Shown: piece after piece, positions 30,130 through 50,016 of the stretch
Numbering within the stretch: the stretch's first letter is position 1
Layout: every line of letters begins with the position of its first letter
IMG/VR virus record: IMGVR_UViG_3300047558_000137
Location: 124,001-188,000 of that record
DNA: 64,000 nt
DNA from: a virus
Direction: 5' to 3' (one strand)
Translations under genes and position numbers: made by a program
Notes under the pieces: generated by a model
What the model saw: only the letters and a program-made list of their open reading frames with translations
What the model was told of the DNA's origin: nothing
Database searches by the model: none

Positions 30130-30453
30130 TTAAATGCTAAAACTGCTACCGCAACCGCATGTTGTTTGTGCGTTTGGGTTATTAATAGTAAAACTGCTGC
30201 CCATTAATTCTTCTTTATAATCAATGGTAGCGCCAGTTAAATACTGCCCACTCATAACATCTACTAGAACTTTTACCCCATCTAGGTCAAAATCCCAATC
30301 GTCATCAGTTTTTTCTTCGTCCAGTGTAAATCCATAGCTAAATCCCGAGCAGCCGCCACCTTGGACAAACACTCGTAAGTTAACGTTTGGATTGTTTTCT
30401 TCTGCTAAAATGTCTCGAATTTTAGCTTTTGCTGATTCAGTAATAGTAATCAT
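30130..30453 (-). CDS. A-type iron-sulfur carrier (IscA/ErpA family)
   Basis: A 107-residue protein with the three invariant cysteines: '[13 protein letters not shown]' and 'TTCGCGSSF'. '[16 protein letters not shown]' is the family N-terminus. A-type carriers deliver Fe-S clusters to apo-proteins; phage copies are known in cyanophages. Its clients could include the radical SAM enzyme at 46900. Confidence 0.93.
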
Positions 30454-30458
30454 ACAAA

Positions 30459-30677
30459 TTATTTATTGCGATATACTACACGACCGCGATTTAAGTCATA
30501 TGGACTCATTTCAACTTCTACACTGTCACCTAGTAGAATACGAATATTGTGTTGACGAAGTTTTCCGCCAATTGTGGCAGTAATCATATGATCGTTTTCG
30601 AGTTTAACTCTAAACATTGCATTGGGCAGTACCTCGTCAATTTTACCTGCCATGCGAATTTGCTCTTCTTTGGCCAT
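30459..30677 (-). CDS. infA: translation initiation factor IF-1
   Basis: A 72-residue protein, the same length as E. coli IF-1, with the OB-fold pattern '[20 protein letters not shown]', '[20 protein letters not shown]' and '[18 protein letters not shown]'. IF-1 occupies the ribosomal A site during initiation. A full-length, well-preserved copy in a phage is unusual and fits the other translation genes here (tmRNA, suppressor tRNA). Five nt separate it from the Fe-S carrier gene. Confidence 0.95.
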
Positions 30678-33001: not shown

Positions 33002-33718
33002 TTAGTCCCAAAGTGCCTGATAATACTTACCAAACAGTCGGAAGCCGTTGCTAATACGGTCTTGCACAACCTTCATGCCTTCGTAATCACATTTGTATGT
33101 ATCGTTTGGTCCACGATCCATTTGGTAATATTTATGTTCACCTTTTGGAACTTGATTACCATCTTTATCGACAGGCACCCACAGCATGTCTATCTCGCCT
33201 GAGCGAAACTCATCTTGCCAGCTTTCATCAAGTTCATGCTCAAAGGCAAATATCATTTCATCCATTACCCAATCCCAACGCTTGAAATGATTGTCGTCGG
33301 TGTCGTATTCATTTTCTTTAGGAGGTGCGCTGGTGCTACGCAATTCTTCCGGTACATCAGCATCATCTACAAATGGCGCACCGTGTTTATCACGCTTTAG
33401 CTGTCGTAGCATAGGCAAGGCAATCATGCCCAGCGTATGATCCATTGACCAAGTGTCCCAACGATCAATCTTAACGTATTCAATACGTGGGTAAATCTTT
33501 TCGCCAACCCACTGAATAGCACGACTAACGGGTACTAGTCGTTCAGCAAGTGCTTCTGCCCATTCGGGACGATCAAACCATTTACGGTTTTCGTCTAGTG
33601 CAGATTCAATGCTTTTATCGCGATGGCAACGACTCCAGTCAGTCCAAAAGAACGCCAAGTCCACGATAGTGTAGGGACTAAGCCAATGATCTCGATATTT
33701 GCTGATGTAAACTTTCAT
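33002..33718 (-). CDS. conserved T4-like phage protein (238 aa)
   Basis: 'MKVYISKYRDHWLSPYTIVD', 'RIEYVKIDRWDTWSMDHTLG' and 'STSAPPKENEYDTDDNHFKRW' are highly recognisable in a widespread phage hypothetical protein. No enzymatic motif identified. Transcribed from a consensus promoter placed for a leaderless start. Confidence 0.75.
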   Translation of the reverse strand: MKVYISKYRDHWLSPYTIVDLAFFWTDWSRCHRDKSIESALDENRKWFDRPEWAEALAERLVPVSRAIQWVGEKIYPRIEYVKIDRWDTWSMDHTLGMIALPMLRQLKRDKHGAPFVDDADVPEELRSTSAPPKENEYDTDDNHFKRWDWVMDEMIFAFEHELDESWQDEFRSGEIDMLWVPVDKDGNQVPKGEHKYYQMDRGPNDTYKCDYEGMKVVQDRISNGFRLFGKYYQALWD

Positions 33719-33724
33719 AGCTTA

Positions 33725-33753
33725 ATTATATATTTAATTGAATTTCTGGTCAA
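33725..33753 (-). promoter_or_regulatory. sigma-70 promoter, predicted leaderless
   Basis: TTGACC, 17-nt spacer, TATAAT, then TAAGCT and ATG 33718 on the minus strand. The -35 overlaps the stop codon of the last LRW-array gene. Confidence 0.75.
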
Positions 33754-34019
33754 GCCCATCGTAGGGCAAACGCTGTGGCGTCTGCTGGATGTTCAAAATA
33801 CCAATAGTTTTGCACCAATTTATAGTCGCCTGTTGCACTAATATGGACCCAGGCTGCAATTTCTACAATGGTATTTGTAATTTTATATCTTTCCATGCTG
33901 ACATTGGCCCTAGTCCATCCATCACCAATTAGTTTTTCTGCCATTATATTATCAATAATCTCTTGATCTATTTGGCGGGCTAAATGTGTCGAAGCCTCGT
34001 TGGCCCAATCATCTTTCAT
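33750..34019 (-). CDS. LRW-family protein, last of array (89 aa)
   Basis: Member of the LRW family (described at 43340..43522). Ends FALRWA but encodes it as CTA CGA TGG GCT, without the AGG-TGG Shine-Dalgarno found at most junctions; no gene follows directly. This suggests the peptide itself is under selection. Start ATG is set by the upstream RWA junction. Confidence 0.65.
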   Translation of the reverse strand: MKDDWANEASTHLARQIDQEIIDNIMAEKLIGDGWTRANVSMERYKITNTIVEIAAWVHISATGDYKLVQNYWYFEHPADATAFALRWA

Positions 34020-34267
34020 GCCCATTTCAGTACAAATGCAGTATAGTCTTGATCTTCATCAAAGTATACACGAATTCTATAACCTCGCTCTGTACTTTCG
34101 TAGGTAGCACCAACTTGCTCAAGTTCCTCATCTAGGATTCTTTCTAACATTCCAGGAGGTGCAGTTGGTGTGCCAATACGGCGTCGCCATACATCCGCAT
34201 ACCAACGCTCAAAGTAGTTCTTGGGCTTATTACAGTTGATGTTCTGATAATACTCTTTTACAATCAT
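34016..34267 (-). CDS. LRW-family protein (83 aa)
   Basis: N-terminal part is basic and aromatic (YYQNINCNKPKNYFERWYADVWRRR); C-terminus 'YFDEDQDYTAFVLKWA'. LKW is encoded with AAA, so the ribosome-binding site for the next gene is weak. ATGA overlap. Confidence 0.65.
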   Translation of the reverse strand: MIVKEYYQNINCNKPKNYFERWYADVWRRRIGTPTAPPGMLERILDEELEQVGATYESTERGYRIRVYFDEDQDYTAFVLKWA

Positions 34268-34515
34268 GCCCACCTCAACAAAAACATCGTAAACTTTTGT
34301 TCATCAATCACACGGTAATCTTTCATGTTGTAATCTTTGTCTAACTTTACTTCTACACCGTATTCGATCAACACATGATGAAGTTGTGCGTCATAAACAG
34401 GATTGCCTGTGACTACTTTTGCTTCTGGGAGAACTGACCAATAATGATTTGGTGACGGTTGTCCCATACTTTCCACAGCTCGTGCCAATATTAGTTGTAA
34501 GTCACAAGATTTCAT
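34264..34515 (-). CDS. LRW-family protein (83 aa)
   Basis: C-terminus 'VIDEQKFTMFLLRWA' with TGAGGTGGGCATGA at the junction. Middle region has 'VYDAQLHHVLIEYGVEV', a helix-turn resembling the WCxExFG helix of other members. Similar to 41106 (VVDEQKYLIFVLKY). Confidence 0.65.
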   Translation of the reverse strand: MKSCDLQLILARAVESMGQPSPNHYWSVLPEAKVVTGNPVYDAQLHHVLIEYGVEVKLDKDYNMKDYRVIDEQKFTMFLLRWA

Positions 34516-34943
34516 GCCCACCTCAACTTATAAAACACAAAATCTTTTTCGTCGCGAAAGTAGATTGCCCCGACCCCGCACCACCACCGACTCCACGCAT
34601 CTGGTTTGTTTGGATGTTTTCCGAAATGTTCTGTACACCATTTGATGATTTCGTTATACTCGCGGCCCAGGGGATAGATGCTATTGCTAATGTCAACAGT
34701 GTGCCATTTAGCCCGACTGAATTGGTATTTGGGTTTTGTAACAGGATGCATTGGTAAAAAGATTTCTTTACATAAGTTACTATCGTAGATTCTGTTTTTC
34801 AAAATCTTTGTGTACAAACTCTTACCAGTTTGACGGCCCACGCTGATTACATTTATTGTGCCAGCTGGGATACCACCAGCGGTATTACCTAACACAGTTG
34901 GCATCCATGTTTCAAGATCAACGGTGATTGTTTTATTTTTCAT
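34512..34943 (-). CDS. LRW-family protein with long N-terminal extension (143 aa)
   Basis: The longest array member. An extra N-terminal ~75 residues include 'GNTAGGIPAGTINVISVGRQTGKS', which looks like a Walker A loop (GRQTGKS) of a nucleotide-binding protein such as a helicase/packaging fragment. Then typical 'EIIKWCTEHFGKHP' and 'YFRDEKDFVFYKLRWA'. Looks like a fusion of a P-loop fragment to the family unit. Confidence 0.65.
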   Translation of the reverse strand: MKNKTITVDLETWMPTVLGNTAGGIPAGTINVISVGRQTGKSLYTKILKNRIYDSNLCKEIFLPMHPVTKPKYQFSRAKWHTVDISNSIYPLGREYNEIIKWCTEHFGKHPNKPDAWSRWWCGVGAIYFRDEKDFVFYKLRWA

Positions 34944-35224
34944 GACCACCTCAACAAAAATGCAGTAACTAACTTCTCATCGTAGAAGTAAATATAGCCG
35001 CCGCGATAGTCCCAGTCGCTGTGTTCTCCACCTGCTAGATCACTAAGTGGGTTACCGAGTTCCCACAGCCACCTATACAATCCATGTGGCCAATCGATTG
35101 GCGTGCGATAAGTTTCCCAGCGTTCTTGGGCAGGATTATAATCAAACCTCCACTCATTTTTAGCATGTTTGTGACGAATAGTAGCCAAAATTTTCTCCGC
35201 CGGTGTCAACGGTGCTAACATCAT
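34940..35224 (-). CDS. LRW-family protein (94 aa)
   Basis: Ends 'YFYDEKLVTAFLLRWS'. Trp-rich centre (GLYRWLWELGNPLSDL, WDYRGGY). Junction TGAGGTGGTCATGA supplies the next ribosome-binding site. Confidence 0.65.
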   Translation of the reverse strand: MMLAPLTPAEKILATIRHKHAKNEWRFDYNPAQERWETYRTPIDWPHGLYRWLWELGNPLSDLAGGEHSDWDYRGGYIYFYDEKLVTAFLLRWS

Positions 35225-35505
35225 GCCCACCTCATCAGGAACACTGCCTTATCACGCTCGTGCTTGAAGAAGATTGTTTCAAATCTCCAAATCCAATCGC
35301 GTCCAAAATGTTCTTCACACCACAGCATGATTTCTTCAAATGGTGCAGCACCATTATACTGCCAGTGAGAGAAATACTGACACACAATATTAACTGCGTT
35401 TGCGTCATTTGTATATAGGCAAGGAGTCTCTGCTACAAACTCCCGTAGACGTTCGCGGAGAGTGCTGTAAATCGAATCAACTTGCAGTGTGTTCTTTACT
35501 TTCAT
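35221..35505 (-). CDS. LRW-family protein (94 aa)
   Basis: A textbook member: helix 'FEEIMLWCEEHFGRDWIW', strand 'RFETIFFKHERDKAVFLMRWA'. Upstream helical part 'YSTLRERLREFVAETPCL'. GAGGTGG junction. Confidence 0.7.
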   Translation of the reverse strand: MKVKNTLQVDSIYSTLRERLREFVAETPCLYTNDANAVNIVCQYFSHWQYNGAAPFEEIMLWCEEHFGRDWIWRFETIFFKHERDKAVFLMRWA

Positions 35506-35732
35506 GACCACCTCAACATAAAAAGAGTTGCTTTTTCCTTGCTAGTAAATTGCCACCAGGTCCCGATATAATTGTGACATTCTCTCCAGCCTGCACATTT
35601 CTTTCCGTTGCCAAAAGTGTCCCGGCACCAATCAAACATGTTATCGTATCCGTTTCGATCTGCATGTTCAAAGTCTAAATGTACGTGCCATTGCCATTTT
35701 CTAGCATCTTTTCTACGTTGTTTTGAGTTCAT
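35502..35732 (-). CDS. LRW-family protein (76 aa)
   Basis: Contains 'NMFDWCRDTFGNGKKCAGW' and 'WWQFTSKEKATLFMLRWS'. Basic N-terminus. GAGGTGG junction. Confidence 0.7.
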   Translation of the reverse strand: MNSKQRRKDARKWQWHVHLDFEHADRNGYDNMFDWCRDTFGNGKKCAGWRECHNYIGTWWQFTSKEKATLFMLRWS

Positions 35733-35914
35733 GCCCACCTCAATAAAAATGCTGTTAAATCTTGTTCAGTCTTATAGACTATACCGGTTGCAAAAGCATC
35801 GTATTCAGGTCTGCTGTTACACCAGTCATAAATTTCATCCCACTCAGCCGCAGAGAAATGAAAACTAATACCAATGTAATTGTAGCGATGATCGATTGTA
35901 AACTTCTGAGTCAT
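35729..35914 (-). CDS. LRW-family protein, minimal (61 aa)
   Basis: One of the shortest members: 'WDEIYDWCNSRPEYDAFATG' then 'VYKTEQDLTAFLLRWA'. GAGGTGG junction. Shows the minimal unit needed. Confidence 0.65.
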   Translation of the reverse strand: MTQKFTIDHRYNYIGISFHFSAAEWDEIYDWCNSRPEYDAFATGIVYKTEQDLTAFLLRWA

Positions 35915-36108
35915 GCCCACACCAATGCAAATAACGTAGCGTCTACTTGACGCACAAACTTAAATGTGTAATCCCAGTCGTCTTTAAAGTAATCTGGCTT
36001 TGTGAAGTTCCAGTCCTTATGCTGAACCAAATTTTGATGCATTAGCCATGATAATATATCAGGAAGAACCTGATCACGTTTAATGCTAACACAAACATCG
36101 TAAGTCAT
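35911..36108 (-). CDS. LRW-family protein, LVW variant (65 aa)
   Basis: Ends 'FKFVRQVDATLFALVWA': Arg of LRW replaced by Val through GTG, which also breaks the GAGGTG site. Helix 'LPDILSWLMHQNLVQHKDW'. Confidence 0.6.
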   Translation of the reverse strand: MTYDVCVSIKRDQVLPDILSWLMHQNLVQHKDWNFTKPDYFKDDWDYTFKFVRQVDATLFALVWA

Positions 36109-36314
36109 GCCCACTTTAACCTAAACCACATGGCATCCTGCTCACGCTCAAACCAAACATAGCGACCAGCATAATACAGATAGAACTTACCAGGGCTGTC
36201 ATGCAGTTGCAGTTCACGCTTGAGATTTCGATCAAAACGATCATGCATATCGGAAACACTGACTTTGTGCCAGCGTAGTTGGCGAATCCGTTTATCTTTG
36301 TTCCAGTATTTCAT
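36105..36314 (-). CDS. LRW-family protein (69 aa)
   Basis: ATG 36314 is chosen from the TGAGGTGGTCATGA junction. Very basic N-terminus (MKYWNKDKRIRQLRWHKV), C-terminus 'YVWFEREQDAMWFRLKWA'. Confidence 0.65.
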   Translation of the reverse strand: MKYWNKDKRIRQLRWHKVSVSDMHDRFDRNLKRELQLHDSPGKFYLYYAGRYVWFEREQDAMWFRLKWA

Positions 36315-36631
36315 GACCACCTCAATGATAACCAAGTCAATAGTTCTTCGCTAATGATATAACGGTCCCAGAATCCGGGCCTTGTTGCTTTTAATTCACC
36401 ATGTTTCCACATGTATAGGGCTTGTTGCTCTATCCAGTGACTGACCTCTCTATTGACATCTACGACTACATACCCTTCGGGTACAGTTTCATTATGATTA
36501 GTAACCGTAACCCATTTGGGTGGTGTTAGATCCATAGGCTGTACACCCACAATATCTTGTGCTATTAACTTGGGAAGAATTTTCCTAATCATAGGAATCA
36601 TTATCATTGGATTTTTTAATGGGTCTGTCAT
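36311..36631 (-). CDS. LRW-family protein with N-terminal extension (106 aa)
   Basis: Extended N-terminal half (MIPMIRKILPKLIAQDIVGV...PEGYVVVDVNREV) then 'HWIEQQALYMWKHGELKA' and 'YIISEELLTWLSLRWS'. GAGGTGG junction. Confidence 0.6.
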   Translation of the reverse strand: MTDPLKNPMIMIPMIRKILPKLIAQDIVGVQPMDLTPPKWVTVTNHNETVPEGYVVVDVNREVSHWIEQQALYMWKHGELKATRPGFWDRYIISEELLTWLSLRWS

Positions 36632-36855
36632 GCCCACCTCAACAAAAATGCAGATGCCTTGGCATCATCATTGAACTTAAAAACCACAGCCCACTGATTG
36701 AACTCAAGATATTGCTCTTTAGTACCGGAACGTCGGTTAAATTTAGCAAAACTCCAATCCCATGTGCGAACATCGTTACCGAAAGTCTCAAAACACCAAG
36801 TCAGCTGTTGTGTCAATCCGACATCAGACTTTGCGTCCACGTTTACTTTAATCAT
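36628..36855 (-). CDS. LRW-family protein (75 aa)
   Basis: Clear family pattern 'QLTWCFETFGNDVRTWDWSF' and 'FKFNDDAKASAFLLRWA'. GAGGTGG junction. Confidence 0.7.
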   Translation of the reverse strand: MIKVNVDAKSDVGLTQQLTWCFETFGNDVRTWDWSFAKFNRRSGTKEQYLEFNQWAVVFKFNDDAKASAFLLRWA

Positions 36856-37103
36856 TGCCACCTCAACCTACATATTGTAGCATCTTTTTCATGCAAGAAC
36901 CAGACACTTCTCATAAACATTTTGTATGTGTGCGGGTCAAAAGTTTCCCGGCACCACGTGTTAATTGTTTCAAAATCGTGTTGCTTCCAGTTTAGTGCAG
37001 TCTCATACTCTGCACCTAAATGCCATCCAAACTCCGGGGCCTCGCAAGGAGTCATAGGAATCATAACCTTTTTACCGTCAATGTATGTCCACACTTCTGT
37101 CAT
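36852..37103 (-). CDS. LRW-family protein (83 aa)
   Basis: 'FETINTWCRETFDPHTYKMF' and 'VWFLHEKDATICRLRWQ'. The junction is AGG TGG CAA TGA. Gene begins ATG 37103 after a non-LRW (LKL) ending of the upstream member. Confidence 0.65.
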   Translation of the reverse strand: MTEVWTYIDGKKVMIPMTPCEAPEFGWHLGAEYETALNWKQHDFETINTWCRETFDPHTYKMFMRSVWFLHEKDATICRLRWQ

Positions 37104-37327
37104 AGCTTTAATAAAAACATTAGATAGTGTTGTTCATTGTGAAATGTCAAATAGTTGCGACCTTCTTTCCAGTTGTAGTATTGTCCAACATCGTATTTGT
37201 CATTGAGCCAGCGCCAAAGATTACTGTATCGTATTTGATCCTTAAGCCAGCTATCTTTAATCTGCTCGATATGAGCATCAATTGGAATCTTGTGTTTGAA
37301 CCAATGATTAAACAGATGTACTTTCAT
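37100..37327 (-). CDS. LRW-family protein, degenerate C-terminus (75 aa)
   Basis: 'LWRWLNDKYDVGQYYNWKEG' and 'TFHNEQHYLMFLLKL': the final Trp is lost. No Shine-Dalgarno in the tail. Basic N-terminus. Confidence 0.6.
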   Translation of the reverse strand: MKVHLFNHWFKHKIPIDAHIEQIKDSWLKDQIRYSNLWRWLNDKYDVGQYYNWKEGRNYLTFHNEQHYLMFLLKL

Positions 37328-37569
37328 GACCACCTCAATACAAATGCTGTATGACTAGATTCATTGTCCCAACGTAAATACCATCCTTGTGTTTTTGTTG
37401 CAACAAACCGCCCGCCAACGGGACGAAGCTCATGGTTCATTACTGTACCCGGATCCCACCCATTGGCACGAGCAATAGTCTGACAATGTTTAAAAAAGTT
37501 ATCAAAATACTTGGGCCATGCATCTTCCCAATAACCTTTAGTAACATGTACTATAAACTTGTCAGACAT
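37324..37569 (-). CDS. LRW-family protein (81 aa)
   Basis: ATG 37569 follows TAA of the upstream gene (ATAATG), the only TAA at a GAGGTGG junction I see. Ends 'YLRWDNESSHTAFVLRWS', with an additional LRW at the strand before. Confidence 0.6.
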   Translation of the reverse strand: MSDKFIVHVTKGYWEDAWPKYFDNFFKHCQTIARANGWDPGTVMNHELRPVGGRFVATKTQGWYLRWDNESSHTAFVLRWS

Positions 37570-37787
37570 TATGCCCACCTCAACATAAACATAACATAAT
37601 CACGTTCATCTTCAAAATAAAACACCGGCGATTCTTGATCTTCTTCTACGGCATGCCACTTAGTTAATGCCTGCGTGATTACATCACCGTTCTGCATATC
37701 GAGTCCTTGTGCTGTATGGTACTCGTAGAAGTTGCGCCACCAGTTGGTCCACACGCCACGCTCATTAATCACATTTACTTCAATCAT
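37569..37787 (-). CDS. LRW-family protein (72 aa)
   Basis: Ends 'VFYFEDERDYVMFMLRWA' with junction GAGGTGGGCATAATG. Middle contains 'WTNWWRNFYEYHTAQG'. Confidence 0.65.
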   Translation of the reverse strand: MIEVNVINERGVWTNWWRNFYEYHTAQGLDMQNGDVITQALTKWHAVEEDQESPVFYFEDERDYVMFMLRWA

Positions 37788-37981
37788 AGCCATTTTAATG
37801 CAAACATTGATGCATCAGCTTCATCTCGGAAATAAAATCCAGTATTCCCAAATGACGATTCCCAGGACCAACGATCTTGATCTTTACGATGCCAGACTGC
37901 GTAACCAAAATGTCGGATACACCAGGCTCGGATGATATCTATTTCGTGATAGCGATCCTTACCTAATACAAACTCAGTCAT
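37784..37981 (-). CDS. LRW-family protein (65 aa)
   Basis: Contains 'IIRAWCIRHFGYAVWHRKDQD' and 'FYFRDEADASMFALKWL'; LKW uses TTA AAA TGG so no embedded ribosome-binding site. Confidence 0.7.
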   Translation of the reverse strand: MTEFVLGKDRYHEIDIIRAWCIRHFGYAVWHRKDQDRWSWESSFGNTGFYFRDEADASMFALKWL

Positions 37982-38274
37982 TGCCATCTCAGACTAAACA
38001 TCATGGCATCAGCTTCACGACGGAAGATAAAGACCAAATCGCTTTCTTCATCATCGCTAGCATCAACGTGCTGTATAACACCTTCAGCTTCTTGCTCAGT
38101 GGTAAGCTCAGGAACCTGCTCTACACGTTCTTCGTAATAGAACCAGTCCTCGATGCCCATCCAGGTGTTTTTAACAAAGCGGCGCGAACCAAGACCAATA
38201 CTGGCTCGGCACCATTCTTCGATTTCCACGAGCTTGTCGTGGTGCTTACGGTCTAGTTTGATAGTGGTTGTCAT
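37978..38274 (-). CDS. LRW-family protein with acidic insert (98 aa), start of second subarray
   Basis: 'LVEIEEWCRASIGLGSRRFV', 'TWMGIEDWFYYEE', a Glu/Asp-rich linker, then 'FIFRREADAMMFSLRWQ'. I recall similar single-copy proteins in other T4-like phages, so this may be closest to the ancestral form. Has its own extended -10 promoter 6 nt before ATG. Confidence 0.7.
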   Translation of the reverse strand: MTTTIKLDRKHHDKLVEIEEWCRASIGLGSRRFVKNTWMGIEDWFYYEERVEQVPELTTEQEAEGVIQHVDASDDEESDLVFIFRREADAMMFSLRWQ

Positions 38275-38280
38275 AGCTGT

Positions 38281-38286
38281 ATTATA
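38281..38286 (-). promoter_or_regulatory. extended -10 promoter inside the LRW array, predicted leaderless
   Basis: TGCTATAAT-ACAGCT-ATG 38274, preceded by AGTACTTTAGTACTAC. Divides the array into two transcription units. Confidence 0.65.
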
Positions 38287-43530: not shown

Positions 43531-43536
43531 ATTATA
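43531..43536 (-). promoter_or_regulatory. -10 box of LRW-array promoter
   Basis: TATAAT eight nt before ATG 43522; possible -35 TTTAAC at 18 nt. Confidence 0.55.
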
Positions 43537-43562
43537 ACGTATAACATCTTTATAGTTAAAAA

Positions 43563-44003: not shown

Positions 44004-44555
44004 TTAGAAATTACGTGTGTAACTAACTTTGACTACATTATTTTCTGTATCGCCTCTGATTCTATCAAAGCCAACTGTTACAGAATCGTTCTTGTTTAAT
44101 GGATAAGTTAAACTGGCACGAGCAGTATGTGTCTGGTCGGAATCGAGCTGCGTTGCTGAACGATATCTCCATCCCAATTTTGCAGTAAATGGACCAACTG
44201 GCATACTTACACCTGGTTCAACACTGTAATATGTAAAGTCTGTAGTGTTTGTATACTTCTGACCTACCCCGATACGAGTATATCCTTTAACTGATCCAAA
44301 TATAGTGTTTGTTGCAGTTAGACCAGCCTCAAGGCGTGTGCTTAATGCACCAGTGCCATCAGTAACTTGGTTACCAAAACCTACATCGGCAGCAAGTGTA
44401 TTGCTTAAATCGTGTTTGACAATTAAGCTGTACAGTTTACTATTTGCACCACCGGCTACTTGATTTGTGTAGTCAGCAAATTCAACAGTTGCACTTGAAC
44501 CTGCAAATGACAAGCCAGAGGCAACTAGCGATAACATTGCTAAAATTTTCTTCAT
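44004..44555 (-). CDS. small outer-membrane beta-barrel protein 1
   Basis: A 183-residue protein with signal peptide (MKKILAMLSLVASGLSFA) and alternating hydrophobic strands ending in a C-terminal Phe (KVSYTRNF), the BAM recognition signal of outer-membrane proteins. Size fits an 8-stranded barrel (OmpX/OmpW-like). Paralogue of the next gene; both share signal peptide and ribosome-binding-site context (AAGGAAAATAAATGAAG). Confidence 0.75.
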   Translation of the reverse strand: MKKILAMLSLVASGLSFAGSSATVEFADYTNQVAGGANSKLYSLIVKHDLSNTLAADVGFGNQVTDGTGALSTRLEAGLTATNTIFGSVKGYTRIGVGQKYTNTTDFTYYSVEPGVSMPVGPFTAKLGWRYRSATQLDSDQTHTARASLTYPLNKNDSVTVGFDRIRGDTENNVVKVSYTRNF

Positions 44556-44575
44556 TTATTTTCCTTAAAATAGAG

Positions 44576-44601
44576 AAAAAGCCCAATGATGGGCTTTTTG
44601 T
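44576..44601 (-). terminator. terminator between the two barrel genes
   Basis: AAAAAGCCCA-TCAT-TGGGCTTTTT, usable in both directions. Expression of the downstream barrel from the same promoter would need readthrough. Confidence 0.85.
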
Positions 44602-44616
44602 TTTTGTTAGTCTTAA

Positions 44617-45168
44617 TTAGAAATTAAAGCCTAGACCAACACCAAATGCGTTTTCTTTGATAGTCTGACCTGAGCGGCTAGCATTCAAGTTGAACGAAAC
44701 ATCTTTTGTAACTGGAATGCTGTATGTAGCAAAACCAACTGTCTGTTTGGTACGTGCGCCAACTTCTGTTGAACCAACGCGAGTCTTAACACCGGTTAGC
44801 AAGAAACCTGGGCCAACTGGCAAACCGTATGTTGCACCAACTAGACCATAGTTGTAAGCTGTGCCACCGTTGAAGCCATTGTCATGACCTGCACCAACAA
44901 ATGGTGTGATGCCTTTAAAGTTGATACCGTTCTTTGCGGCAGTAACCTCAACACTAGACAAGATACCTGAATTGTCTTTCATTGTGGCTGTGCGGCCTTG
45001 CAAGCCGTATTGGATTCCGCCAATTTCCTTACCAGCACGAATGTATTGTGCTGTGCTATCGCCAGAACCATTACGACCTAAAACGTTATCAACGTCAACG
45101 GATACATAAGATACTGCAAAAGCAGAACTAGAAACGGCCAAAGCCAAGATTGCTAAAATTTTCTTCAT
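44617..45168 (-). CDS. small outer-membrane beta-barrel protein 2
   Basis: A 183-residue protein with signal peptide (MKKILAILALAVSSSAFA), strand pattern and terminal Phe (GVGLGFNF). Same length as its neighbour though divergent in the loops. May alter host surface, for example to block superinfection, or serve as porin; this is inference. Confidence 0.75.
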   Translation of the reverse strand: MKKILAILALAVSSSAFAVSYVSVDVDNVLGRNGSGDSTAQYIRAGKEIGGIQYGLQGRTATMKDNSGILSSVEVTAAKNGINFKGITPFVGAGHDNGFNGGTAYNYGLVGATYGLPVGPGFLLTGVKTRVGSTEVGARTKQTVGFATYSIPVTKDVSFNLNASRSGQTIKENAFGVGLGFNF

Positions 45169-46899: not shown

Positions 46900-48702
46900 T
46901 TAAACTCGTGTAATTTTATTTTTCGTTGAATACAACTTACGGAATATAAACTTTTTAAAGTCTTTAATATTTGGTGTGCTCGGCTCAATTTGGTACTGGA
47001 ACGCACCCCGATCCCACGTTTCTATATCAACATCAGTATCAACTGTTAAAGGATAAGATACAGAATCCCGATACATTGAATTAGTCTGTAGCTGATAGAT
47101 AGAATCGGGTATATTGGTTAAACTTCTGGCAACACTGGTTGTTAGGTCAAATGTAAGATCCAAATGATCGTAGAGATATTCGGAATTTAAGTTATGATAA
47201 AGCCCATGCCCATTTTTTCGAAATGATTCAAGATCCTTTATTTCCCCAGTTGATAGATATTGGTGTATAATATTTCTAGACTTGACAAACTGTTCGGCAA
47301 AGTCTCCTATGCGGAATTGTTCGAACAGTTGATCGTAGAATTGTCTATAGGATATACCTAATACGTTTCTGCAATACTTGGCATACAGATGACTATAGCC
47401 ATGTATGTGAAAATTAATAACAGTGGCCGCATATAGATAACCATCAACAATGTCATCTAGGCTCATAGTGTCGGTTGACTGTACCAATTCCATATCTTCA
47501 TCGATACCACGCCAGTCATCTTGGTGATATAGTGTAACAAAATCTCTTACTGTTACAGATTTAATACCATACTGCTGTCTGCTGGCAGGTTGAGATAATT
47601 CACTGTTTTCCAATAGTTGAGCAAAAAATACTTCAATGGTTTGATGCTGTCCCATTTCTAGCGTATCAGCTATGCCCTGCTTCCAGGACTCTAGTGTTTC
47701 ATTGGGCAGACCAATAATTAATTCTGTATAGGTTGGTATCTTGTGCTGTTGGCTCAACTTCATTAACTTCTGTACATCATTAATGGCAAGATTTTTACGT
47801 TTGATTGCATCTAAGGTATTGTCGTTGTTACTTTGTAATGCCACAGTAACACCTTTGCTATAAGGACCTATTACTCGCGCAATTTCAAATGCATTTTCTG
47901 AACTGTTCTTAGGATACTGAATATTGACAGAACTGATCATACTGTTATCTGCGGCCTCACGTATCATGTGTGCTATTTCAAGATCTCTTTTGAACAATAT
48001 ACCAAAGTTGGCATCTGCTACAAATATATGCACAACAGGATTTGCTCGAGCCCAGTCTAGTTCTGCTTGTATATGCTCTAACTGAAACTTTTTTATTTTT
48101 GAGTATGTAACTCCGCCCCAATCGCAAAACGTGCATGAATAAGGGCATCCACGATTGGTTTCTAATGTCATTGCCCAGACAAAGTTGGGATTGTCTTTGA
48201 CGATTTGATCAAACACTCCTGAGGTATATGCACTTGGAATGTCTAGGTCTTGTAGTCGTTGTCGTTGATAAAACGGTTCTATAGGTCGATTGGCAGCAAT
48301 GTCTCGAAGTATGGCAGTGAAGTTTTCCTCACCTTCGCCCATGATAATGCAGTCAATGAATTTATGCTGTATTAATTTACCGCTGGGTTCTGCTCCACCA
48401 AATACAATAACACAATCAGGCCAACGTTGTTTAATTTCTTGGGCCAATGTTAGACAATAATTTTTATTCCATATATAACAGCTAAACCCGCATAAGACAG
48501 GATCCGACATTCGTGCCAATACATCTTCAACAGGTTCTCTGCGGAATATAATATCAGCTAAATGGAATTGTTCACGTATGTCAGAAAAATGGGTTGCATA
48601 ACTCCATATGCAACCCACACTGTACGGTAGCCAATAAGTATTTTCGTCTCTATATTCAACACCGTACTGTGGTTGAAATAGATATACGTTTGATTTTGTC
48701 AT
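46900..48702 (-). CDS. B12-binding-domain radical SAM enzyme
   Basis: A 600-residue protein. The N-terminal ~150 residues look like a cobalamin-binding Rossmann domain ('CVIVFGGAEPSGK', 'CIIMGEGEENF'). The radical SAM cluster motif is C187-x3-C191-x2-C194 (GCPYSCTFC). Later segments 'HIFVADANFGI', 'KGVTVALQSNNDNTLDAI' and 'YTELIIGLPNETLESW' match the TIM-barrel strands. Members methylate or rearrange diverse substrates. Start at ATG 48702. Neighbours AhpD/AhpC and the IscA-type carrier could support Fe-S chemistry. Confidence 0.9.
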   Translation of the reverse strand: MTKSNVYLFQPQYGVEYRDENTYWLPYSVGCIWSYATHFSDIREQFHLADIIFRREPVEDVLARMSDPVLCGFSCYIWNKNYCLTLAQEIKQRWPDCVIVFGGAEPSGKLIQHKFIDCIIMGEGEENFTAILRDIAANRPIEPFYQRQRLQDLDIPSAYTSGVFDQIVKDNPNFVWAMTLETNRGCPYSCTFCDWGGVTYSKIKKFQLEHIQAELDWARANPVVHIFVADANFGILFKRDLEIAHMIREAADNSMISSVNIQYPKNSSENAFEIARVIGPYSKGVTVALQSNNDNTLDAIKRKNLAINDVQKLMKLSQQHKIPTYTELIIGLPNETLESWKQGIADTLEMGQHQTIEVFFAQLLENSELSQPASRQQYGIKSVTVRDFVTLYHQDDWRGIDEDMELVQSTDTMSLDDIVDGYLYAATVINFHIHGYSHLYAKYCRNVLGISYRQFYDQLFEQFRIGDFAEQFVKSRNIIHQYLSTGEIKDLESFRKNGHGLYHNLNSEYLYDHLDLTFDLTTSVARSLTNIPDSIYQLQTNSMYRDSVSYPLTVDTDVDIETWDRGAFQYQIEPSTPNIKDFKKFIFRKLYSTKNKITRV

Positions 48703-48714
48703 CAACCGTATTTA

Positions 48715-49233
48715 TTAGTTACTTACTACCCTTGCTACAGAATTAATAACACTGGCAATACGTCCGATATCGCGAAGTTGTTCTACGGTGTAGCCCATCT
48801 TCTTTAATCCTTCATAGTGTGCCTTAACACAAAAGTGGCACTTACCAACAATACTTGCAGCCAAACTATAGGCTTCAAAACGTTCTTTGGTTGTACCGCC
48901 ACTGGTACTGATAGCGTTCATACGCAACTGTGCCGGCAATCCTTTTAACTGCTCATCGTCGGCCATTTCAACATAAGGATACCATATGTTGTTTTGTGCC
49001 ATTAATGCGCCAGCCGTAAGTGCTGCCTGTGTTTCAGTTTTGTTGGCAATTTGGCTTTCCATCCAAGTCCATAGCTTGCTGTTACCTGTTGCAAAAGCTG
49101 CCGCTAAGGCCACAGCTTCTGCTTCTTCTACTGGTAGTGTGCTACGCTTGATTACTGCGTCAATGTTTAATTTTGTATCTTTTGCATAGTCAGGAATACT
49201 GGCTTCCTTTAATGCATCTACCCATGCTGTCAT
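48715..49233 (-). CDS. ahpD: AhpD-like carboxymuconolactone-decarboxylase family protein
   Basis: A 172-residue helical protein with the active CxxC motif 'CHFCVKAHYEGLKKMGY' (about residue 131). AhpD reduces AhpC in some bacteria. It is two genes downstream of an AhpC-type peroxiredoxin, so the pair can form an NADH-linked or lipoamide-linked peroxide defence. Confidence 0.85.
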   Translation of the reverse strand: MTAWVDALKEASIPDYAKDTKLNIDAVIKRSTLPVEEAEAVALAAAFATGNSKLWTWMESQIANKTETQAALTAGALMAQNNIWYPYVEMADDEQLKGLPAQLRMNAISTSGGTTKERFEAYSLAASIVGKCHFCVKAHYEGLKKMGYTVEQLRDIGRIASVINSVARVVSN

Positions 49234-49243
49234 TTTGTTTTCC

Positions 49244-49471
49244 TTACGTTAATGCTTTAAAAGAGCCTACTAGATAGATTACAACCACAACTAGTTCTAC
49301 TATGATTAGGCTCCATTTCTTCCATATAAATCCTAACCAGAGCCATAATAGATTGGCAGCTAGACAGACAAATATATTAATAGGATAATAGTTAAAACTT
49401 GTTAACCAAACACCCAACAACAGTATTAGTGTAGCTGACCATTCTACTATAAACTCTAGGTTAAATTTCAT
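49244..49471 (-). CDS. small membrane protein between AhpC and AhpD (75 aa)
   Basis: Two to three hydrophobic segments ('SATLILLLGVWLTSFNYYPINIF', 'LAANLLWLWLGFIW', 'LIIVELVVVVIYLVG'). ATG overlaps the ahpC stop (TAATG). Confidence 0.6.
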   Translation of the reverse strand: MKFNLEFIVEWSATLILLLGVWLTSFNYYPINIFVCLAANLLWLWLGFIWKKWSLIIVELVVVVIYLVGSFKALT

Positions 49472-50016
49472 TAAAGTGTTTCACCACCGATTGGGCGTGA
49501 GCATGGGCACAACTCGCCAGTTTGCAATGCATCTAATACACGCAATGCTTCGTCTGGGTTACGGCCAACATCCAAGTTGTTTACTGTAACGTGTTGGATG
49601 ATGTTGTCTGGGTCAACAATAAATGTTGCACGTAGTGCGGCACCTGCTGGACCATAGAAGATACCCAATTGCTCGGCCAAGCTGTTTTCGTCGCGAGCTA
49701 CGTCAGCAAATGACCAGCTGTTAGTTTTCTTCAAGTCTTCGTGTGCGTTACGCCAAGCCAACTTGCAGAACTCATTGTCTGTTGAGCCGATTAGCAATAC
49801 TGCATCACGGTCAGCAAAGTCCGAATTCAACTTGTCGTAGGCTACGATTTCAGTTGGACATACAAAAGTAAAGTCCTTTGGATAATAAACGATTACTTTC
49901 CATTTACCTTCAAAGCTCTTGTCTGTGATGGTTTCAAATGCGCCGTCTGGTGTCAATGCGCCTGGCTTAACGCCTGTTACTGCAAAACTTGTGATTTTGT
50001 CGCCGATAGTTTTCAT
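49471..50016 (-). CDS. ahpC: AhpC-type 2-Cys peroxiredoxin
   Basis: A 181-residue peroxiredoxin. Peroxidatic Cys is in 'DFTFVCPTEIVAYDKL', the conserved Arg in 'LRATFIVDPDNIIQH', and a C-terminal resolving Cys in 'TGELCPCSRP'. Reduces hydrogen peroxide and organic peroxides. Phage-borne AhpC is unusual; with AhpD it forms a likely accessory metabolic module. Confidence 0.93.
   Translation of the reverse strand: MKTIGDKITSFAVTGVKPGALTPDGAFETITDKSFEGKWKVIVYYPKDFTFVCPTEIVAYDKLNSDFADRDAVLLIGSTDNEFCKLAWRNAHEDLKKTNSWSFADVARDENSLAEQLGIFYGPAGAALRATFIVDPDNIIQHVTVNNLDVGRNPDEALRVLDALQTGELCPCSRPIGGETL

Follow-up and report, generated by a model that had tools for sequence, protein, structure and literature searches.

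A conserved tail of small phage proteins probably recoded as Shine-Dalgarno sequence, start codon or -35 box at gene junctions

An array of small genes on the minus strand of virus record IMGVR_UViG_3300047558_000137 raises the question of why its last member retains the C-terminal peptide LRWA without the ribosome-binding codons seen at many junctions upstream. The analysed stretch, designated here as the window, is 64,000 nt long and is part of this 374 kb virus record (positions 124,001 to 188,000). We consider it probable that a conserved C-terminal helix of the paralogues is recoded along the array as a Shine-Dalgarno (SD) sequence, a start codon or a -35 box, and that the terminal member uses the -35 box. 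The features are listed in Table 1.

Table 1. Features of the small-gene array and of its junctions (window coordinates)
Feature	Position	Strand	Remark
Small-gene array	~43522 to 33750	−	direct reading
Terminal array member	33750..34019 (at widest 34025)	−	89 aa from ATG overlapping upstream stop; ends FALRWA
LRWA codons CTA CGA TGG GCT	33753..33764	−	direct reading
-35 hexamer TTGACC (wobble T of GCT, stop TGA, CC)	33748..33753	−	recurs in other phages
-10 hexamer TATAAT, 17-nt spacer from -35	33725..33730	−	
14-codon open frame, start in cgATGg, TGA over ATG of next gene	33715..33759	−	probably coincidental
Next gene (phrog_11543, E 2.4e-41)	33002..33718	−	ATG 6 nt past -10 box
Lower array segment, upstream of terminal member	34016..38274	−	mostly stop/start overlaps, commonly AGG TGG (G/T)CA TGA
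TATAAT-N6-ATG (TGC TATAAT, extended -10)	38272..38286	−	start of lower segment, before gene 37978-38274
Upper array segment	38323..43522	−	SD-type junctions and junctions with next ATG inside Arg/Lys-Trp codons
Promoter-like TTAACT-17-TATAAT	43531..43559	−	8 nt before first array ATG
In-motif start, example TTA CGATGG CGG TAA	43340..43354	−	ATG of next gene inside CGA TGG

The terminal gene ends on the minus strand with TTT GCC CTA CGA TGG GCT TGA (33750-33770), which codes for FALRWA and the stop. The AGG common at many upstream junctions is absent from its tail, and because the next gene starts 31 nt downstream (stop at 33750, ATG at 33718), stop and start neither overlap nor abut. The spelling of LRWA, the lack of a coupled neighbour and the loss of an SD-like AGG(TGG) from the last codons, as given in the initial annotation, were thus all confirmed by direct reading. 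Tails without AGG are not unique to this gene, as they were found in 13 of the 29 window members in a regular-expression listing, with AGA, AAA, AAG, CGA or GTG at this place. In eight of these 13 the ATG of the next frame lies within the Arg/Lys-Trp codons, and is composed of the last base of the Arg/Lys codon and TG of the Trp codon.

Translationally coupled gene pairs have an ATGA stop/start overlap, with the SD inside the coding end of the upstream gene. The array junctions resemble such pairs, as stop/start overlap and AGG in the last codons are present at junctions apart from the terminal one, which is not of the ATGA type. The SD junction TGAGGTGGNCATGA, i.e. TGAGGTGG(N)CATGA, has 14 exact sites in the whole genome, all of them inside the array. 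The array differs from the known pairs in that the end of the upstream gene codes for a conserved protein motif, shared by more than 1000 paralogues and homologues.

Several neighbouring genes on the minus strand were recognized by their domains. Two adjacent genes at 30130-30677 code for translation initiation factor IF-1 (PF01176, E 1.2e-22), which is of interest near putative leaderless genes, and for a protein of iron-sulphur assembly (PF01521, E 3.4e-22). Just upstream of the array, at 44004-45168, there are two 183-aa proteins with signal-peptide-like N termini, one of them at the cut-off of Porin_4 (PF13609), which suggests phage-encoded outer-membrane barrels. A radical SAM protein with B12-binding domain was found at 46900-48705, and an AhpC-type peroxiredoxin (PF00578) near a carboxymuconolactone-decarboxylase-family protein (PF02627) at 48715-50016 suggests an oxidative-stress module.

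A large family of small phage proteins

The LRW-tail proteins of phages are small and belong to a large, widespread and undescribed family. Loci with many similar arrays were collected by two pattern scans of viral contigs. The family profile has 14 columns and stops at the conserved F, so L, R, and W are left out of it, although its seeds were LRW-ending proteins. The profile search recovered 1106 members in 233 loci, or 844 when close copies were removed. An upstream C-terminal signature (aromatic...D-A..F) precedes F-x-L-x-aromatic in both the profile and the alignment of subfamily A2, which comprises the terminal member and its orthologues; in its 51 sequences W57, F84, and W88 are invariant. 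One further member lies in the genome of the array but outside of the array itself (G000:C1:271689-271847) and ends with FQLKWAGHEI.

Two other phages carry dispersed members. Sinorhizobium phage Phosso, a cultured virus of 469 kb, has 41 of them over its genome (loci L388 and L412-L420), and Agrobacterium phage Atu_ph07 has six. In the region of Phosso that was viewed, the members are annotated as hypothetical proteins with the frequent tail FKL(T/R/A)(W/F).

No convincing match of the array members was found in Pfam, PHROGs, PADLOC, or PDB sequences, and distant membership in a described family is possible. The terminal protein and another array member were both without a match when phage isolates were searched by tblastn. 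No earlier description of the family or of its junctions was found in the literature, which was covered in part. The N-terminal helix of an orthologue matched weakly the major head protein phrog_138 (E 0.08 and 0.0055). The terminal member has an orthologue at L377:6527-6781, downstream of which come a promoter-like -35/stop element and then a gene that resembles ClpS by eye. Most likely, the family represents putative small accessory proteins expressed as large operons.

The AF2 model of member 37784, computed from a 40-sequence alignment, has a pLDDT of 93.8 and a beta-alpha-beta-beta-alpha arrangement, while the model of the terminal member (51 sequences, pLDDT 86.7) has a long N-terminal helix followed by a similar core. 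F-x-L-R-W sits in the final helix of both models, against our first guess of a beta strand for LRW. According to the conservation and the models, F, L, and the aromatic residue of the tail probably pack into the core. Small alpha/beta-plait (ferredoxin-like) proteins in PDB share the beta-alpha-beta-beta-alpha order (best VIA Z 6.5 over 57 residues, rmsd 2.5), but the family model is without the last beta strand. Foldseek against PDB gave a best E of 0.15 and there was no convincing sequence match, and a fold relative in PDB is not claimed, as the comparison revealed only a common alpha/beta arrangement. BFVD contains proteins from uncultured Caudovirales phages, among them A0A6J5LHB1 (Foldseek E 5e-4), that have the same fold and size and probably belong to the same family. 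These likely relatives are unannotated, and no description of their function or of junction recoding was found.

Conservation of the tail peptide and switching of its codons

The members were classed by the position of the downstream start, and the scan hits were removed as a control for bias. The uncoupled sample is small, with 42 bias-controlled members, of which 15 have Arg, and these are phylogenetically non-independent. The motif [LMIV][RK][WFY] is kept in 31 of these 42 members, all from other phages, where 0.0044 would be expected for each by chance. As proposed initially, the peptide is therefore kept where no SD is needed for coupling. Among members with Arg, AGG is used by 142 of 203 overlap-coupled versus 3 of 15 uncoupled ones (bias-controlled; Fisher p = 1.8e-4), and AGG makes up about 8.9% of Arg codons in long frames as background. 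Where the ATG lies inside RW, 3 of 33 have AGG and the others have AGA or CGA. Comparison of the LRW codons with and without a coupled downstream gene, which the initial annotation had suggested as a check, thus agrees with its view that the SD is layered on the peptide by codon choice. The same switching of AGG was observed in the terminal gene's own orthologue subfamily.

A blind scan required the upstream DA..F signature, a stop inside the -35 box, and TATAAT, with L, R, and W unconstrained. The signature was added since TGGNNTTGAC-N18-TATAAT as the sole search pattern is unspecific, with nearly all hits by chance and one member in 122 sites. The scan returned 28 contigs with about 11 distinct uncoupled members, and these have W in 11/11, aliphatic L/M/I in 11/11, R or K in nine, and AGG in 0/11. 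Retention in uncoupled members, the codon switch, the blind scan, and the switching in the subfamily together support two effects on the same tail codons, a constraint at the protein level and an overlay at the codon level.

LRWA in the terminal gene could also be a remnant, duplicated along with the junction during expansion of the array, its SD codons having drifted after uncoupling with no selection on the protein. A remnant would fit the clear paralogy of the gene with coupled genes, the higher frequency of R and W in coupled members, and the looser motif in Phosso; but the motif has survived in the uncoupled members despite heavy codon change and deep divergence, and W88 and F84 have not varied over the diverged terminal subfamily. 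Moreover, uncoupled members replace R by K with AAA codons, by which the charge is conserved rather than the DNA. We regard the remnant explanation as improbable.

The protein-level constraint does not concern a fixed triplet. Among 49 members found by profile in the fetched regions of Phosso and Atu_ph07, which serve as outgroup, the first motif position is L in 41, the second is R in 13, T in 13, A in 11, and S in five, and the third is W in 19, F in 14, and Y in four. In the sequences compared, the deeper conserved feature is F-x-L-x-aromatic, looser than LRW. A protein-level role of LRW, as claimed initially, stands as far as the motif is kept when uncoupled, but not for the exact triplet (R 13/49, W 19/49); in these two phages, homologues outside arrays uphold it only in part. 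In the array phages W was counted in 257 of 332 coupled versus 23 of 42 uncoupled members, and R over K is also commoner in the coupled ones, which indicates that the nucleotide overlay shapes the peptide too. Influence is suggested both ways, as the codons serve the next gene, and the needs of the next gene favour R against K and W against F/Y.

A promoter-like element over the stop codon

From the last codon of the terminal tail onward the sequence reads GC[TTGACC]-AGAAATTCAATTAAATA-[TATAAT]-TAAGCT-ATG, a match of 11/12 to the sigma70-type hexamers TTGACA/TATAAT with a spacer of 17 nt (within 16-18). The element spans 33753-33725 on the minus strand, and its -35 box includes the stop codon of the terminal gene. 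The initial annotation had considered the nucleotide site useless, and this view had to be abandoned, given a stop codon inside a -35 box with TATAAT 17 nt further on. The terminal tail is probably part of a candidate promoter for the next gene. The ATG at 33718 is at the expected +1 position, 6 nt after the -10 box, and from this distance a leaderless mRNA is predicted for this gene.

The wobble base of the last Ala codon sets the use of the site, as GCA TGA gives ATGA and GCT TGA CC gives TTGACC. This base is necessarily A in every ATGA-coupled member, and it is T in 9 of 16 uncoupled members ending with TGA. Of 56 uncoupled ends, 22 lie near a promoter-like match with a score of at least 11 of 12 (shuffles: 0.0), as against a single one of 425 ATGA-coupled ends, and the -35 box is at exactly -4 in nine uncoupled ends with a score of at least 10. 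In the related contigs L154, L201, and L219 the spacer has diverged, with both hexamers retained. TATAAT-N6-ATG was counted 15 times on the coding strand across this genome and four times in the reversed control, and in the window the three strongest promoter-like matches of the minus strand (46118, 33753, and 7498) each precede an ATG by 6 nt.

TTGACC-17-TATAAT could have arisen by coincidence, with the next gene expressed by read-through of the array transcript. Promoter-like matches at a loose threshold are about as many in the region as the shuffle mean (47 vs 45.5), and a score of 11 is expected by chance about once per 64 kb strand, so the case for the single site in the window rests on its position and recurrence. 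A terminator between the array and the promoter was looked for and not found, and read-through could therefore also express the next gene. On the other hand, promoters at the strict threshold are specific to uncoupled ends, and the exact distance of 6 nt from -10 box to ATG recurs across the genome, so coincidence appears rather unlikely. From the recurrence of promoter-like sequences at uncoupled ends, we infer promoter activity and leaderless translation.

In leaderless genes a -10 (TANNNT) box lies about 10-12 bp before the start codon (PMC3160421; PMC12340547). TATAAT-N6-ATG of the phage is similar, as its expected +1 falls on the A of ATG, and differs by an added near-consensus -35 box that overlaps the stop codon of the previous gene. 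In the literature searched, there was no report of a -35/stop overlap with leaderless-type spacing for this phage group.

The terminal CGATGGG also contains the ATG of a 14-codon frame (33759-33715), the TGA of which overlaps the ATG of the next gene. Ribosomes could be carried across the gap by this frame, and the terminal gene would then still be coupled. Eight other window junctions offer an ATG within the Arg/Lys-Trp codons from which the next gene could start. By a hand estimate, however, chance would produce such a 45-nt frame in about 5% of comparable gaps; the frame also lacks a preceding SD and was not seen to recur at the other uncoupled ends that were read. Since the overlapping promoter-like element accounts for the same gap, such coupling is very improbable; the frame is probably coincidental and is not relied on here.

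Recoding of the tail

The preferred explanation, that the conserved helix is recoded at each junction, would proceed as follows. The terminal gene would be the last in an array of small paralogues sharing a C-terminal helix that ends with F-x-L-(R/K)-(W/F/Y) and is presumably kept for protein reasons. As the helix extends to the stop codon, the four codons at its end would be free to take other spellings that are of use to the next gene. AGG TGG NNA TGA would provide an SD with overlapping ATG, NNA TGG would provide the ATG of the next gene itself, and NNT TGA C would provide a sigma70 -35 box. The terminal member would use this last spelling, with its stop codon within the -35 box of the promoter of the next transcription unit, which probably begins as a leaderless mRNA. 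Peptide conservation, codon switching, and the recurrence of promoter-like sequences at uncoupled ends are demonstrated by the comparisons above.

At these codons, selection on the protein can be told apart from selection on the nucleotides, and on a large set of natural sequences. Simple operon prediction would overlook the probable leaderless promoters that lie over stop codons. More tentatively, the last four codons could act as a recoding switch, by which cassettes are inserted, lost, or made operon ends through little more than wobble changes, and the conserved junction may be a site of cassette recombination. If such a switch exists, it would let phages rewire their large small-gene arrays while the proteins stay unchanged.
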